From: Bdellovibrio bacteriovorus HD100
GTDB lineage: Bacteria; Bdellovibrionota; Bdellovibrionia; Bdellovibrionales; Bdellovibrionaceae
DNA: 64,000 nucleotides
Direction of reading: 5' to 3'
Assembly: GCF_000196175.1 (NCBI RefSeq)
Contig: NC_005363.1
Span: forward strand, 2,480,001-2,544,000
Under the pieces are notes generated by a model. It worked only from the letters and a program-made list of their open reading frames with translations, had not been told where the DNA came from and made no database searches. The translations under genes were made by a program, and so were the position numbers. Positions 10,818-19,235 of the stretch are shown here, piece by piece; positions within the stretch are counted from its first letter, which is position 1; every line of letters starts with the position of its first letter.

Positions 10818-11039
10818 ATGAAATTCGCTTCTATCTTGATGACTATCGCTTTCGCAGGTGTTGTTGCTCACGCTAACGAAACTGCTCCAGCTGCTACTAC
10901 AACAACTGCTCCAGCGGCTCCTGCTGCTGAAGTTAAAGCTGAGAAAAAAGCTGCTAAGAAAAAGCACGCTAAAGAAGCTGCTCCTGCAGCGGCTGCAGCT
11001 CCAGCGGCTCCTGCTACTACAGCTCCTGCTGGTCACTAG
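10818..11039 (+). CDS. Small exported Ala/Lys-rich protein
   Basis: 73 residues after a strong Shine-Dalgarno (AGGAGG, about 10807). The signal peptide is MKFASILMTIAFAGVVAHA. The mature 54 residues are almost only Ala, Pro, Thr, Lys and Glu (TTTTAPAAPAAE, KAEKKAAKKKHAKEAA). An 18-base motif, GCTCCAGCGGCTCCTGCT, occurs twice, showing internal duplication. Low complexity prevents family assignment; small abundant envelope proteins of this kind are common. A strong terminator follows at 11065. It has its own promoter in 10732-10817. Confidence 0.75.
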   Translation: MKFASILMTIAFAGVVAHANETAPAATTTTAPAAPAAEVKAEKKAAKKKHAKEAAPAAAAAPAAPATTAPAGH

Positions 11040-11118: not shown

Positions 11119-11167
11119 TCTGAATCCCTGTCCCAACCAGGCCAAACAATTGCTCTTACTTAAGGGC

Positions 11168-12052
11168 ATGAATCTAAAATGCCCTTATTGCCACCTTCAA
11201 AGAGATCCCAAAGACGCCAACCGGACAATCCGCAGGCTCGGCCGATACTATCGCAAATCCGACGGCCAAACGCTTACCAGACTCTGGTGCGTTCGATGCG
11301 GAAAGAGCTTTTCAGCAGCCACCCAAAGCCGCTTAAAAGGCCAAAAAAAACGCCATCTCAATAAGCTGATCCGCGACCTACTGACCGGCGAAATGAGCCA
11401 GCGTGAAATTGCAAGGGTTCTGAAAATCAACCGCAAAACCGTCGTTCGCAAATTTCGCTTTGCCGCCGCCCAGGCAAAAGAGCAACTCAAGAAGCACAAT
11501 CAAAAATTCGCCCCCAGTGTGGAGGTTGAGTTTGATGATTTGGAGACCTTTGAGCACACCAAGTGCAAACCCCTCTCGGTGACACTGATGGTGGAATACT
11601 CCACACGAAGAATTCTGGGTTTTGAAGTGGCGCAGATGCCAGCAAAAGGCAGAATTGCCGCTTACTCGAGGAAGAAGTACGGTCCGCGCAAGGATTTTCG
11701 CCCTCAGGCAAGAGCGAAGTTGTTTACAGAAGTGCGCCAGTTTATTCATCCCAATGCCATTATCAGGTCGGACTCAAATCCGGCTTATCCAGGTGATGTG
11801 CAGAAGTACTTTCCGAAAGCAATTCATACTACAGTGCTGGGAGGAAGAGGGGCTGTGGTCGGTCAGGGAGAGTTAAAGAAGCTTCGCTGGGATCCGATTT
11901 TTTCATTGAATCACACGTTTGCGATGATGCGGGCGAATATCAATCGATTGATTCGCAAGACATGGTGTACGACGAAAAAGCCCGACCAGCTGGCCGGGCA
12001 TATTGCAATTTATGCTTTAGAGCATAACAGGAGGATAGCCGCCACACAGTGA
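11168..12052 (+). CDS. IS transposase (IS1/IS1595-like, zinc ribbon plus HTH plus DDE-type core)
   Basis: 294 residues from the ATG at 11168; a TTG at 11150 is an alternative. The N-terminus is a zinc ribbon (CPYC and CVRCGKSF). A helix-turn-helix follows (MSQREIARVLKINRKTVVRKF). The core has the acidic positions FDDLETF and IRSDSNPAY. The third catalytic position falls in SLNHTFAMMRANINRL, where many relatives have Glu or Asn, so DDN rather than DDE is possible. The frame is intact from end to end and the terminal repeats are in place, so the element may be functional. I am not sure of the IS family. Confidence 0.8.
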   Translation: MNLKCPYCHLQRDPKDANRTIRRLGRYYRKSDGQTLTRLWCVRCGKSFSAATQSRLKGQKKRHLNKLIRDLLTGEMSQREIARVLKINRKTVVRKFRFAAAQAKEQLKKHNQKFAPSVEVEFDDLETFEHTKCKPLSVTLMVEYSTRRILGFEVAQMPAKGRIAAYSRKKYGPRKDFRPQARAKLFTEVRQFIHPNAIIRSDSNPAYPGDVQKYFPKAIHTTVLGGRGAVVGQGELKKLRWDPIFSLNHTFAMMRANINRLIRKTWCTTKKPDQLAGHIAIYALEHNRRIAATQ

Positions 12053-12067: not shown

Positions 12068-13534
12068 TTATTTCACCCAAAGCTCCACGCGCGGAACACC
12101 AATCGTCCCCGCCCCCGTAACCGTATCACAAGCCGGAATCCCCACCGGAGTCCCATACCCCGCCGGCGCCATCATCCCCACCGCATAGAACCAGTTCGAA
12201 TGATTGGCAGAACCGTCAGCCAACGCCGTGTTGCTGGCACCATTGTATTCCAGACCGCCCCAATAGTTCGAGGTGGATTCAATCGCCACGGCCACGTAGC
12301 CTGCCACCGGTTGTGACGTGAAGTTGCTGGTCTGAGTCCACCAGTTACGAATGGCACTTCCCGAACCGGGCCAATTGATTTTGAGCTCCAGCTTGCCAGA
12401 TCGATAGAACCCGGCCACACGACCCATGATCGAATAACGGCCCGCCAGCGGCGATCCTGAGTTGTAGCTTAAAGTCTCTGCGACGTTGGCAAACACTCCG
12501 TCTGAATAGTTATGGTTCAGAATTCGCGTCCAACCACCACCATCTGTCGTCATATCACAGTAAACCGGAATAGCTCCCCCACCACCGGGATTGATCGTGT
12601 ACAATCCCGAACCGATAGAAGCTCCGGCATCCAGGATGGCTTTACAAGAGTTGTAAGTGGTATAGGTGTCGTCCTCTTTGATCCACAGATTTACTTCCGC
12701 CACACCAACATTGCTTCCAAGCATCGAACTTGCTGCCGGAATACCCGCCGGGGTTCCATAGGCCACTGTCGATCCGATGGCGTACCACCAGTCAGAAATC
12801 TGCACCGAACCATCCAGCAAGGCCTGATTGTTATTGATAGGACCATGAGTTCCGTTTCCCAACTCCAAGCCACCCCACTTGTCCGTGATGGCCGTCGCCA
12901 TAATTGGCGTCCATCCGGCGACGACCACGTCGCTGAGCGGGTTCGTGCTCTGAAGCCAGATATTTTTATTGGAATACCCGGGCCAGGTTTGGCGGAAACG
13001 ATATTTGCCGTTCGTGGCAAAATCCGGAATCTTGGTCAGTTGAGAATACAGATTTCCCGTCGGAGCTCCTGTATTCTTAGACTGCGCATCAGCCGTGCTG
13101 GCGAAATAACCTCCAGCCACGTTGTGACGGAAGATGCGGGTCCAGCCGCCCCCGTCCGTCGTCATATCACAATAGGCCGAGTACTGCGCGTTGGCCCCGG
13201 TCCCATCGGAATCAATCGTGTAAGTCCCATCGGCCGGGCTTCCCATCAGCTCTTTGATTTCTTTGCAGGATTTTGGATAGCATTGCGTGGCTACGATAAA
13301 TGCAGGTTTGGAGGCTCCAACAAAGGACGTCCACTCGGTCGAAGTCTTCGTCGGCACGAACAAGTCACTGCTGGCGTGATTGTTGTCGATGATATAGCAA
13401 GACCCTTGAGTCGAAACGTATGGAACGTAAATACGTGTGGATCCACCAACTGGAATACGATAGCCCTCGCTGAGAGTGTTAATTCCCAGCACAAAAGGCG
13501 CCATCATGATCATCAGTGCAATTCGCAGTTTCAT
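12068..13534 (-). CDS. Exported protein with two fibrinogen-like domains
   Basis: 488 residues. There is a signal peptide (MKLRIALMIMMAPFVLG), a spacer of about 90 residues, then two related domains at about 90-290 and 295-488. Both begin with a Cys-Lys-x-Ile motif and CDMTTDGGGWTRI, the hallmark of fibrinogen C-terminal/ficolin-type lectin domains. Both also keep WGGLE, W(W/F)YA(I/V)G, GTPxGIP and a terminal VxLWxK. Such domains often bind acetylated sugars, so a role in recognising prey surfaces or in tipping the adjacent fibre is plausible. It is last in the fibre operon. The insertion sequence lies 4 bases beyond its stop but the protein end looks native. Confidence 0.75.
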   Translation of the reverse strand: MKLRIALMIMMAPFVLGINTLSEGYRIPVGGSTRIYVPYVSTQGSCYIIDNNHASSDLFVPTKTSTEWTSFVGASKPAFIVATQCYPKSCKEIKELMGSPADGTYTIDSDGTGANAQYSAYCDMTTDGGGWTRIFRHNVAGGYFASTADAQSKNTGAPTGNLYSQLTKIPDFATNGKYRFRQTWPGYSNKNIWLQSTNPLSDVVVAGWTPIMATAITDKWGGLELGNGTHGPINNNQALLDGSVQISDWWYAIGSTVAYGTPAGIPAASSMLGSNVGVAEVNLWIKEDDTYTTYNSCKAILDAGASIGSGLYTINPGGGGAIPVYCDMTTDGGGWTRILNHNYSDGVFANVAETLSYNSGSPLAGRYSIMGRVAGFYRSGKLELKINWPGSGSAIRNWWTQTSNFTSQPVAGYVAVAIESTSNYWGGLEYNGASNTALADGSANHSNWFYAVGMMAPAGYGTPVGIPACDTVTGAGTIGVPRVELWVK

Positions 13535-13552
13535 ATCTGTTCACGTCCCGTT

Positions 13553-14980
13553 TTAACGAAGATAGAATTTGAAGTTACACGCATTCCCTTTACCACTGTA
13601 GCACACTTCTGTCGCCTTGTACGTCGGCACGATCCCCTCGTTCCCGGAGTTGAATGCTATGTTAAACGCATCAGAAGAGTTATAATTATCATTGGCATTT
13701 TGCCCTGCACATCCTGCCGTTCTGCTGGTGTGGCGCAGATTCCCGGTACACTTGGTATTGTTATAGTTCCAGTTGCCGCCAGCCAGATCAATGATCGGTG
13801 CTCCGCTGTTGTAAGACGGGGAAATAAACATGGCATCCGTCGTGTTCACTGCTATCGAAAACGCTTCAGGATTCACGGAAGCCTGCTGCGTCGCCATTAT
13901 GTGCTTACCTGCCGCCGCCAGATTGTATGTATTCACAAAGAAATCATTCGGTGTTGCGCCCGTCACAGTGCCGTTGGAGTACGCCACCAGAGTCCAGCCC
14001 CCACCGGATGTGGTCATGTCGCAGAAGACCTCATAAGGCGCTGTGGCTCCGGCTCCATCAATATCAATGGTATAGATGCCATCCCCCTTGGAAGCGCCGG
14101 CCGCCAAAATCGCTTTGCAGGAACTATAGATAGTGTGCGTGTCATCTTCCTTCATCCACAAATTCACTTCCGCCACACCGTGACTGGCACCGAGCACATC
14201 GGAAGCCGGAATCCCGACCGGAGTGGTTCCCCAAGAAACATAGGCCCCAACGGAATAGAACCAGTTCACGTGATTGACCGAACCTTCCAGATACGACGAA
14301 GTCTGCGCTGGGCCATGAGCGCCGTTCCCCAATTCAAGTCCACCCCAATAGTTGGTGTAGCCCTGCACAAAGACGGTCTTGTATCCGGCAACACTCACGT
14401 CGGCCGTGGGATTGGTGGTTTGAAACCAGATGTTTTTCAAGTCTTCTCCGGGCCAGGTCAGACGGAACTGATATTTGTTCCCCGGAGTTTTAAAGTGATC
14501 GATTTTATTAAGAATGGAATACAGATCCGCTGTCGGAGTGGTGGTATTTTTACTGCTGGCATCCGTCGCATCGGCAAAATATCCGCCGGCGATATTGTGT
14601 TTGAAAACACGCGTCCACCCGCCACCATCGGTGGTCATGTCACAGTAGACCGGATAAGGAGAACTGCCCGTGGGATCAATATAGTAAATTCCATCCCCTT
14701 CAGAACCATTGTTGTTCAAAATATCCAGACAGGAACCACACTTGGTCAAAGAGACATTGGTGATCGTGGCGGCCCGAAACGCCGTCCACTCTGCTGCCGT
14801 TTTGGTGGGAACAAAAAAGTCCTTGTCGGCCGTCGCATTGACCACTTTCTTACAGACGTTATGGGCATGGATGGCTTTGGTGGTGCCACGATTCACCCTG
14901 TGACCTGTGTCCTGGGTGTTCAGTGCCACCAGCAAAGGTGACACAGCTAGAATGAAGGCGATCTTTCCGATGATCTTCAC
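13553..14980 (-). CDS. Exported protein with two fibrinogen-like domains (paralogue)
   Basis: 475 residues with a signal peptide (MKIIGKIAFILAVSPLLVA). The first domain (about 85-285) is very close to those of the next gene: CDMTTDGGGWTRV, YWGGLELG, WFYSVG, GIPASDVLG and VNLWMKEDD. The second (from about 290) starts the same way (SCKAILAAG, CDMTTSGGGWTL) but then diverges to a different C-terminal half with several Cys (KCTGN, AGCAGQ, EVCYSGKGNACNF). It probably resulted from domain duplication and shuffling. It starts 4 bases after the fibre gene stop, so it is in the same operon; it may bind to or cap the fibre. Confidence 0.75.
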   Translation of the reverse strand: MKIIGKIAFILAVSPLLVALNTQDTGHRVNRGTTKAIHAHNVCKKVVNATADKDFFVPTKTAAEWTAFRAATITNVSLTKCGSCLDILNNNGSEGDGIYYIDPTGSSPYPVYCDMTTDGGGWTRVFKHNIAGGYFADATDASSKNTTTPTADLYSILNKIDHFKTPGNKYQFRLTWPGEDLKNIWFQTTNPTADVSVAGYKTVFVQGYTNYWGGLELGNGAHGPAQTSSYLEGSVNHVNWFYSVGAYVSWGTTPVGIPASDVLGASHGVAEVNLWMKEDDTHTIYSSCKAILAAGASKGDGIYTIDIDGAGATAPYEVFCDMTTSGGGWTLVAYSNGTVTGATPNDFFVNTYNLAAAGKHIMATQQASVNPEAFSIAVNTTDAMFISPSYNSGAPIIDLAGGNWNYNNTKCTGNLRHTSRTAGCAGQNANDNYNSSDAFNIAFNSGNEGIVPTYKATEVCYSGKGNACNFKFYLR

Positions 14981-14984
14981 AGTC

Positions 14985-17900
14985 TTATTTTCCGTTCAGC
15001 AGAGCTTTTTCAAGACGTTCCAGACGTGCTTTCAGCTCCTGATTTTCCTGCTCCAGTTTTTTCAAACGGCTGTCGGAAGATTCATTCACACTGGCCAGAC
15101 CACGGGACACCTGGGCAATCTGCCCTTGACACAGGGCTTTGTCCTGCAGGCGCTCGGCGTGCTCTTGCTTCAGCGCTTCAACCAGAATCGCCACGATATT
15201 GCCGTACTGAACGGACTTGAAGCCGGAAACTTTGTCGGTGCGAACCAATTCAGGATAAACGGCTTCCACTTCCTGGGCAATGAAACCCACGGTTTTTTCG
15301 CCGTTGTTTTTCCAGACGAAATTCACCCCGCGAAGCTTCAGCAGATTTTCCAAAGCCATCGGCAAAGTCACAACATCTTTCTTCAGACGCGCATCGGAAG
15401 TATACAGATAAGACGCGGCTTTCACGTTGCCGTTGACTTCCAATGCCTCACTTGGTGCCGTGGTGTTAATTCCAAATCGACCCGTAGACAGGATTGTCAT
15501 CTTGGCGGTGTCACTCAACCCCACCTGCATGGTGCCCATCAGACTGTTGGTGATACTCTGCCCGATAGTGATACTATTGCCAGCCGAAACAGTATTACTT
15601 CTGCCGACCACAAGCGAGTTTCCGGAATTGGATACTGAATTGGACCTTCCGAATACATCCAAACTGTAGGAGAAGTTCATCGCCGTCGTTGATATCGCGT
15701 TGCTGGAACCAATAATATTCATGACGCTGGCGTTACCACCACCCGAATTCGTGATCGAGTTCGAAGAACCAATCACCCAGTTGGAGGCATTGGTGAAGGT
15801 CGTATTCCCGCTCCCGATGATGGCTGAGCCATTCACATGCAGAGGCGTGATTGGAGCTGTGGTTCCCACCCCCAAATTCCCGGCTGCACTGATTCTTACT
15901 TTTTCAACATTGCTGGTGTCAAAGATGATATTCCCCGCGACACCATTGCTGATAAACAGGTCGTCGGAACCACCACTGCTAAAACCTATGGTGCCCTTCC
16001 AGGTTCCATTACGAAGCATGTCGATGGAAGGAATGCCTGATGCAACTGTATCCAGAATCAAAGAAGCCTGCGCAGCACTGGTGGTTTTAATCGCCACTTT
16101 GGCATTGGCATCCGTCGCCTGACCAATGCCCACGTTTCCGGAAGTGTCCACTGTCATGCGTACAACGTTGCCAGTCTCTAACTGCAGACTCTGAGCATCG
16201 TTTGTTCCCACCGTCGCCGCGGCCCCGAAGCTGTTACCGCCGTTGACGAACACATCCGTCAAACCGTAACCACTGGCTGTGGTTGGATTTGTTCCCGCAG
16301 TCACGCGGCCATAGGCATCCACCGTCACGGAACGATAGGTTCCTGCGGTGCCCACAGTCGGAAGATCCGCAGCCGCAATGGTGCGGAAGGCTGGCGCCCC
16401 TGCACCACCTGAAGAAGGACCCGCGAAGAATGAGTTCTGCGCCTGATTGGCAAAGTTAGCCGCCGTTACAGAAATCGACTGACACAGGAATGTGTCGGTC
16501 GCGGCATTGTAATACATCGTCTGCGAAGTCGAACACGCCGTGCTGGCGAACACGCCACCAAACGGAGTGATGGTCGAGCGCAAATCCCCCAGCTGCAAGA
16601 AGGCTGGAGCATACTGAGTGGTCCCATTATAGCGCAGCACCTGGCCCGCGGCCGTCGGCGCTGTGGCACTGACAGCTGTGCCCTGCACTTTTGTCACAGT
16701 GAAGGCCCCCGCATTGGTCATGGTCACATCACCGGAAGGCGCCACCGCCGTTGCCACACTGGAGCCATTACCCACACGGATATTGCCCGGAGCCAGAGTC
16801 GCAGAAAGTTTATTGTTGAACGTCGTCCAGTCAGCAGAAGACAGATAACCGTTCTGAGAACCGTTAGCCACCTGAATGCCGATGTTCGGTGCGCTGGCTG
16901 TCCCGGAATTCACAATCGGAGAAGTCACGGCCACACCACTTGTCACCGCAGGGGATGTCCAGGAAAGGTTTCCGGAAGCATCTGTGGTCAGCACCTGATT
17001 GGCAGCACCGACAGCCGTTGGGAATCTCAAAACATAAGAAGTTGAAACCGCGGTTGGCGCCTGCAGGGTCACCGTGTTGGATCCACTGTCACGCAGAACC
17101 ACAGAACCCGCACTGACTGCTCCCGCAGCAAAATTGCCGGAAGCATCACGTCTGACGATCGCACTGGCCGTATTCAAATTCGTCGCCGCGTTCGCCGCCA
17201 CCGTCGCGGTATTGACATTCGCCGCCGTCGAGCCGCCAACAGAGTTGACGGTCGCACTGACCGTGCCGTTCCCGGAAGCGGTCACATCACCGGTCAATGC
17301 CGTGATCGTACCACCGGCGCCAGCGGAAGAAGCAATCGCCACCCAGGCACCAGAATTATACTGATAAATGACTTTTGTATCCGATGCGAAATAAATCGCC
17401 CCCGCCGCCGGGCTGGCCGGCTTCGCAGCGTCAGTTCCAGACTGAATGCTTGGAGAACCACCGGCATTGGAAACCAGGGCATCCGTGATCCCGTACCCCG
17501 ACAGCGTCGTCGGTTTGCCCGAGGTGATTTTAGACCAATCCAGATTCGGAATGTCTCCCGCGGCAAGACCGGTCGAAGCTGTCACACGCCCTTTGGCATC
17601 GTAAGTGATTTTCGTGCCAGTTCCCGCAGTGACTACCGTCGCCAGCGTCGGGCTTGGATAAGTGCCCGTCAGATCGCCACCTGCAGCCCCTGATGGAGCC
17701 CGGGAATTTGTCAGACGCGAATCATTCCCAAGAACCACCTGCGCCGCAGTTGCATCACCCGCAGCCGGAGCATCTTTCACCGCCGCCGTTCCCAAACCCA
17801 AATTGGTGCGGGCGGTGGCCGCAGTCGCCGTCAGCTCACTTAAATTATTGGCAGGATTCAGCGGAGTGAAACCCAGGGCATTTTGTTTGCCATTAAAGGT

Positions 17901-19235
17901 GTTCCAGTCCACAGAAGAAAGATAACCGTTGGTCGTCGTGTTGGCCTGAGAAATCGAAATCACCGGAGTTGTCGTCCCCGTCGCCACGGAAATTGGCGAC
18001 GTCCCCGTCACATTCGTCACGGTTCCACCGGCATTGCTGTCAGCCGCGGCATACCAGCTGGTGCCATTGAATTTCAACACCTGTCCCGTTGTCGGAACCA
18101 CGGTGAAGTCCAGAGGATAACCTTTGATCTGCCCCACAACCGTTGCACCTTGGGTGCCGGTCACGTCCCCTGCAAGACTTCCTGTGAAGTTTGCAGACAC
18201 CGAAGCTGAACCCACCGCCAAAGAAGTCTGATTCGTACACTGCCAGCCCAAAGCCACTGACCAGGTCAGCAGTTGATTGGCGCCGCAAGAAAGCGGAGCC
18301 AACGTCGCCCCCGTGGAAGAATCCGTCATCACCAGACGACTGATACCAGGGTTGGCAAAAAGTTTTTCTGTCGAAACCGCACCTGCCGCCAGTTTTGGCG
18401 TGGTCACGGCATTGTCAGCAAGGCCCGGATTCGGATAAGTCCCTGTCAAAACTCCGCCGGCTGCTCCTGTCGGAGTACGGGCATCACTGAAGCGCGCATC
18501 ATTTCCGGCCGCAACAGTGCCGGCCACGGTGCCCACATTCAGAGTGATCACCGGATTCACATTGTCAGCTGAAACAGTCAAATAAGGGTTGCTGCCCGCC
18601 GACGCGGCCACGGACTGAACCGTACCACCACTGGCACCGGAAACACCGGCACAGCCAAATTCCTTAGTTGCCGCATTCCAGGTCAGGAAGCTGCCTGCGC
18701 CGCAATCTGCTCCGGCATTGACTTCGGTTTTCATCACAAAGTCAGTGGCCACATGCGACCCCAAGGTCGCCGCAGAGGAAGCAAATCCAGCAAAAGGAAC
18801 TGTGCGGATTTCATTGTCCGGAGAGATCGTCTGCCACTGAGAACCATCATGGAATTTTACACGAAGGAAGCGACCATCCGTCAGACCCGGATTGTAAGGA
18901 GAGCCCCCGTCGCACGTGAATGGGTTGCCGTTGTTAAAAGCATCCAGAATCGTAAATGTCGGCGCAGCAGGATAACTGTGCGAAGCCCCGATCTTAACAT
19001 CGAAGACCCCGCCAGAATTTGTCATGTCGATGTGATTCAGCTGCTCACGATAAAGAACGCAGACTTTGTTCGGCGCCAGGATTTCAAACTGAAAGGCCAC
19101 CGCGCTGTATTCCAGCGGAGCTCCGCTGCTTTTAACGATGCGCCCCTGATAAGTCAGAGCCGCGGGGCTGGCTTGGGCCACCGTAGTTAAGAGGCTGACA
19201 AAGAAAAGTGCCGTTAACGTTCCGTAGTTTTTCAT
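14985..19235 (-). CDS. Large trimeric fibre protein with S74-type intramolecular chaperone
   Basis: 1416 residues. It opens with a signal peptide (ending TVAQA) and an N-terminal domain shared with the protein at 1-1179 ([28 protein letters not shown]). A long shaft of tail-fibre repeats follows ([54 protein letters not shown] types). Near the C-terminus come YadA-head-like repeats ([21 protein letters not shown]). Residues from about 1280 are the peptidase S74 chaperone ([25 protein letters not shown]), with a closing coiled coil. In phage spikes this domain folds the trimer and then cuts itself off before the Ser-Asp. I infer a surface adhesive fibre; the receptor is unknown. Confidence 0.88.

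Follow-up and report, generated by a model that had tools for sequence, protein, structure and literature searches.

The window analysed here is a stretch of 64,000 nucleotides, bases 2,480,001–2,544,000 of the single-contig, 3,782,950-base genome of Bdellovibrio bacteriovorus HD100. On its minus strand, between positions 12068 and 19235, three open reading frames lie at the expected coordinates, those of a fibre and of two partners, which we call A and B (table 1). The GTG start codon of A stands 4 bases beyond the TAA stop codon of the fibre; 18 bases separate A from B. A preliminary description of this DNA had claimed a 1416-residue fibre with an S74 chaperone, directly followed by two exported proteins with fibrinogen domains. 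The reading frames, the gap and the profile matches given below bear out both claims.

Table 1. Features of the fibre–partner locus of HD100 (positions are those of the window).
Feature	Position	Strand	Evidence
Gene of trimeric fibre (1416 aa), MAT family, ending in S74	14985..19235	-	NF053851 E 4.1e-65; Peptidase_S74 E 2.2e-15
MAT N-terminal domain, residues 12–170, presumed base on predator surface	18726..19202	-	NF053851 match 12–170
Beta-rich shaft, residues 171–1160	15756..18725	-	matches other MATs and chains 8ond (Bd2133), 8ojn
Head, residues 1161–1279, between shaft and S74 site	15399..15755	-	terminal-position head search, genus
S74 self-cleaving chaperone, catalytic Ser1280 (SDARLK), predicted	15240..15398	-	PF13884 residues 1280–1332
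C-terminal coiled-coil tail (1341–1416) and stop codon	14985..15215	-	sequence; G007 tail remnant before partner genes
4-base gap, fibre stop TAA to partner A start GTG	14981..14984	-	
Partner A (475 aa) with signal peptide, N-module and two fibrinogen-like domains	13553..14980	-	
Partner A N-module, residues 20–80, candidate docking module	14741..14923	-	alignments A1–A3; pLDDT about 91–98
Partner A fibrinogen-like domain 1	14138..14740	-	AlphaFold2 model; Foldseek; Z about 15
Partner A fibrinogen-like domain 2	13556..14128	-	GGGWT match 287–332
Partner B (488 aa) with signal peptide, N-module and two fibrinogen-like domains	12068..13534	-	
Partner B N-module, residues 18–84	13283..13483	-	alignments

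What kind of fibre is this? Behind a signal-peptide-like N-terminus it carries the conserved N-terminal domain of approximately 130 residues by which mosaic adhesive trimers (MATs) are recognized, and it scores 218 bits against the NCBIfam model NF053851 (Bdello_MAT_N), the cut-off of which is 60. It further belongs to the S74 subgroup, matching PF13884 (Peptidase_S74) and carrying the SDxxxK motif as SDARLK at residue 1280. On sequence grounds we assign the fibre to the published MAT family. The HD100 genome has 21 MAT_N matches and 13 S74 matches, the same numbers as those given by Caulton et al. 2024 (PMC10769870). In other members of the family both surface display and S74 self-cleavage have been demonstrated, and in Bd3182 the part before S74 is the free end after cleavage (PMC10769870). 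By analogy, residues 1161–1279 of the HD100 fibre would become its exposed end. This head contains three copies of [IVLF][IVLF]GxxNx[VI], as against a mean of 0.014 in shuffled sequence. The ‘YadA-like head repeats’ of the preliminary description thus survive as a resemblance only: the three VIGxxN-type copies are there, but no Pfam model of YadA, whether of the head repeats or of the membrane anchor, matches the fibre at E ≤ 1.

The HD100 genome holds several MAT clusters. Positions 1–1143 of the window, on the minus strand, fall inside another S74 MAT gene (a 1167-aa frame, genome 2477937–2481143) about 14 kb from the fibre described here. Small lipoprotein-like reading frames with a similar post-cysteine start (CxMxAxLxxL) lie beside MAT genes in HD100 (L085, 13020–13370) and in G001 (L045, 7112–7393); they are possible anchors of MAT fibres. 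On the plus strand of the window, an 809-aa open frame (12512–14941) runs antisense to both partner genes and is probably a shadow frame due to codon bias. Converging on partner B is an IS1-like transposase frame (11150–12052, likewise on the plus strand; 46.6 bits against transpos_IS1, cut-off 100), which is not seen at the corresponding place in G003, G006 and G007. A small exported Ala/Lys/Pro-rich protein (10820–11038, plus strand) is followed by a strong terminator-like hairpin.

Both A and B match Fibrinogen_C above the Pfam cut-off at two places, and both pass the curated cut-offs for GGGWT_bact (E 1e-39 and 1e-35, respectively). At E ≤ 1 there is no other Fibrinogen_C domain in the HD100 genome; all four reside in A and B. 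An AlphaFold2 model of residues 20–281 of A, comprising the N-module and domain 1 and built on a 75-sequence alignment of these two parts, has a pLDDT of 95.7 and a pTM of 0.92. A model of the whole partner from 17 close sequences (pLDDT 41) was discarded. Domain 1 of the model resembles the fibrinogen domains of tenascin, angiopoietins, FIBCD1, ficolins and tachylectin 5A (Foldseek E 9e-8, Z about 14–15), and in structure comparison it also matches phage proteins that carry fibrinogen-type domains. We are confident, on the strength of this prediction, that domain 1 has the fibrinogen fold. Domain 2 of A (KCTGNLRHTSRTAGC) is of the type that stands last in the partners from Bacteriovoracia. 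The DxDND calcium motif is present in the Bacteriovoracia partners and absent from A and B of HD100. A canonical calcium site is thus unsupported in A and B, and we count this against reading them as receptor-binding subunits of the fibre. In the phage collection, relatives of A are weak; they cover 15–19% of A and occur in Vibrio phage tail connector proteins.

The mature N-terminus of A, LNTQDTGHRV...FFVPTKTAAEWTAF, constitutes the N-module (residues 20–80). Its pattern, INTxxxGYRxxxGTxxxI...C...N...F(V/I)PTKT..EW..F, is common to A, to B and to the Bacteriovoracia partners. No Pfam family covers the module of A and B, and no PDB chain matches it by sequence.

Is the order of fibre and partner kept elsewhere in the genus? 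We examined 24 Bdellovibrio genomes and annotated the loci of the 15 that have a Fibrinogen_C match. In nine (HD100, G002, G003, G005, G006, G008, G009, G012 and G023) an S74 MAT gene is immediately followed by A, B or both. These nine represent five distinct neighbourhoods, as set by the flanking genes once paralogous matches of less than about 55% identity are set aside as weak. By sequence comparison the partners sort into type A and type B. Some genomes keep both; behind the fibre, A stands alone in G002, G005, G008 and G009, and B alone in G012 and G023. In G008 the fibre lies in two parts at contig ends, and the reading frames of the parts are one base out of register where they meet. 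Shaft modules are exchanged between strains, and the flanks change too. In G007 (strain kdesi) the fibre is missing. There, a frame for a TIGR02147-type regulator ahead of the pair (L052, 8806–9510) carries at its end what is left of the fibre, the coiled-coil tail, and is directly followed by the intact partner pair. From this remnant we infer that the link of fibre and partner is ancestral in that strain.

There are exceptions. In G001 the pair lies away from any MAT, and a single-domain protein is encoded two genes ahead of an S74 MAT; G008 has a second copy, of type B; G019 and G021 have triple-domain proteins. Nor do S74 MATs have partners as a rule: none of the other 20 MATs of HD100 is followed by an N-module gene or a fibrinogen-like gene. 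Behind a few of them lie small abutting frames, which we do not count as partners. Elsewhere, a 993-aa protein of OmpL47-type repeats with a C-terminal fibrinogen-like domain (L047, 6762–9743; L050, 8676–11657) is encoded on the strand opposite to that of a MAT gene, which lies a few kb away.

A scan of species genomes extended the arrangement to a second class of Bdellovibrionota. In MAGs of Bacteriovoracaceae and Halobacteriovoraceae the gene of an S74 fibre is directly followed by that of a protein of 1187–1194 residues, in which the N-module precedes four to five fibrinogen-like domains. In Bacteriovoracia (family f12) an S74 fibre comes immediately before every one of the 17 loci that encode an N-module with fibrinogen-like domains; these loci are from 13 genomes and ten neighbourhoods, giving 15 neighbourhoods over Bdellovibrionia and Bacteriovoracia. 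The rough chance expectation, calculated with estimated gene numbers and for relatives that are not independent, is 0.06 of 15 loci and, for Bacteriovoracia, 0.03 of 17. At 33 loci the gap between fibre and partner has a median of 0 bp and mostly lies between -17 and +11, which suggests translational coupling. In one Bacteriovoracaceae MAG, multi-domain partners stand in tandem behind one S74 fibre (L105, 2270–9398; L221, 3600–10728), as do A and B in HD100.

Do the fibres that have partners differ from those that do not? Within the genus, a head at least 65% identical and directly before S74 occurs only in eight partner-linked fibres. Two further copies (50–53% identity) lie about 900 bases before S74. 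Across the 24 genomes, presence or absence of this head and of a fibrinogen partner with N-module distribute as 9/0/4/11 (p 5e-4, uncorrected for relatedness). Two observations count against reading the partners as subunits of the fibre. In the ninth linked fibre, that of G012, the head is only 37% identical. HD100 and G003 share 76% identity in the head and 97% in partners A and B. One would not expect this of a conserved docking site, unless the partners make contact with some other part.

The shared N-module, which is paired with other C-terminal domains as well, is probably the important part of the partners. Searched with the A3 alignment, it was found in 55 of 369 genomes of the phylum, and it heads many exported Bdellovibrionota proteins (L229, L230, L234–L249, L252–L259). 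Seven proteins that have the N-module but no fibrinogen-like domain also adjoin S74 fibres (L229, L237, L245, L247, L248, L249 and L259); they end in glycine-rich, TIG or unknown domains. The module is thus a frequent companion of S74 fibres. It is not an exclusive one. N-module genes lie away from S74 fibres in G001 (A and B), G008 (B), G019 and G021, with many weaker or partial cases, and the proteins away from fibres combine it with LamG, TSP1, glycine-rich or unknown domains. The draft genomes G128 and G134 have N-module matches and no S74 match, so that a strictly fibre-bound module was rejected in part. The N-module therefore need not be an adaptor for fibres only, and may bind something else.

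Might A and B then be independent exported lectins, with a transcript and a prey-handling task in common with the fibre but no binding to it? A predator-surface lectin that merely sits in the same operon is the main rival to a fibre subunit, and the occurrence of the N-module away from fibres, together with the two genomes that lack S74, strengthens it. The pair of G007, which persists without its fibre, fits it as well. On this view the N-module would anchor A and B to the predator envelope or to the prey. We nevertheless consider such lectins unlikely, and an anchoring role of this kind equally so, given that at about 33 loci the gene comes right behind an S74 fibre with a near-zero gap, and given the specific head of the linked fibres. 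Fused proteins weigh in the same direction. Three MAT fibres (L058, L059 and L083) end in a fibrinogen-like domain of their own and have neither S74 nor an N-module; in them, the same class of domain is placed on the fibre tip itself. L058 and L059 (MAT_N E 3e-67 and 9e-69; GGGWT E 4e-20 and 5e-20) are nearly identical in layout and were counted as one event, while L083, at 30.3 bits against a GGGWT cut-off of 30, is at the limit of the model.

A partner could also be an assembly factor that folds or caps the fibre without being an adhesin, as is gp38 of T4 (PMC12892980). Gene order and translational coupling would fit that role, yet S74 fibres bring their own folding chaperone, and two to five lectin-fold domains per partner, like the fused tips, point to binding; we regard an assembly factor as improbable. 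That the adjacency is a mere accident of a hitch-hiking cassette with no common function, as the variable shaft modules and flanks might be taken to indicate, is very unlikely, since the order is kept between Bdellovibrionia and Bacteriovoracia with the genes intact and their domain contents different.

We conclude that the fibre and A and B are functionally linked. The gene order over two classes, the near-zero gaps, the swappable types, the fusions and the head of the linked fibres together make this very likely. That A and B are physical subunits of the fibre, at its tip or on its shaft, is a less certain step, which we judge somewhat probable. With the same reserve, we favour a two-part adhesion unit at this locus, A and B being separate, exchangeable receptor-binding subunits of the fibre. 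The preliminary description had suggested here a multi-part adhesion system of a kind that its author had not seen described. Recurrence in 15 neighbourhoods and two classes, and the fusions, speak for the multi-part unit; its novelty must be narrowed, as the fibre belongs to a published family and the N-module is not confined to fibres. The fibre class is known (Caulton 2024). The separate partner is new as far as the readable literature shows: we found no description of it there, the papers on Bdellovibrio and fibrinogen treating other matters to judge from their titles and abstracts, and the main text of Caulton et al. 2024 makes no mention of fibrinogen domains, operons or accessory proteins (PMC10769870).

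How might a two-part adhesion unit work? The most economical mechanism, by analogy with T2-type phages, would be a fibre with separate receptor-binding subunits. After export, the N-terminal domain of the MAT fibre would keep it attached to the predator. The C-terminal S74 domain would help trimerization and then cut itself off before Ser1280, leaving the head as the free end. Once the fibre is complete, the N-module of A or B would dock on it, most probably at the head exposed by cleavage; the fibrinogen-like domains would bind glycans or other groups of the prey surface. Separate encoding would permit exchange of the binding domain behind the same N-module, be it that of A or of B, two to five fibrinogen-like domains, or glycine-rich, TIG or unknown domains. 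Some MATs present an alternative, with the fibrinogen-like domain fused to the shaft and the N-module absent. The pairing in distant predatory relatives, with occasional fusion, suggests that the partners are probably detachable tips that aid prey recognition. A wider generalization, in which the N-module plugs exchangeable binding domains onto self-cleaving S74 fibres throughout Bdellovibrionota, we put forward tentatively, as slightly less than an even prospect.

MAT fibres were the first molecules to be connected with prey recognition in predatory bacteria, and each is regarded as one polypeptide that carries its own tip. With a conserved partner encoded separately, recognition would gain a second layer. 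It would give a lectin to the S74 fibres, whose own ends looked plain, and A and B would become candidate prey-binding proteins in HD100.

How does this arrangement compare with known systems? The HD100 fibre has the MAT N-terminal domain and the S74 end of the fibres described by Caulton et al. (2024). The tips of known MATs include lectin-like folds, C-type lectin or TNF-like, fused at the C-terminus (PMC10769870); here, in contrast, A and B carry the lectin-like domains as proteins of their own, and their genes come directly behind that of an S74-type fibre. With the YadA-type trimeric autotransporters the fibre has in common the trimeric concept and the short VIGxxN-type head repeats, but it ends in S74 and has no C-terminal barrel. 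Domain 1 of A has the predicted fold of the fibrinogen-related lectins (ficolins, tachylectin 5A and FIBCD1; Z about 14–15), although identity is about 15% and A and B lack the DxDND motif of the calcium-dependent, ficolin type. A functional parallel may be found in phages. In S16 and PP01, gp38 of the T2 type joins an N-terminal fibre-binding part to a variable C-terminal receptor-binding part and sits on the trimeric gp37 fibre (PMC12892980). Like it, A and B are encoded next to the gene of a trimeric fibre. The analogy is one of working only: we found no sequence relation, and A has a predicted fibrinogen fold in place of a polyglycine-II sandwich, although some N-module partners (L237 and L247) do have glycine-rich C-termini. 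If the wider, phylum-level reading is true, these fibres and their tips would be a cellular counterpart of phage gp37–gp38, in which prey recognition could be changed by swapping a small, separate gene.
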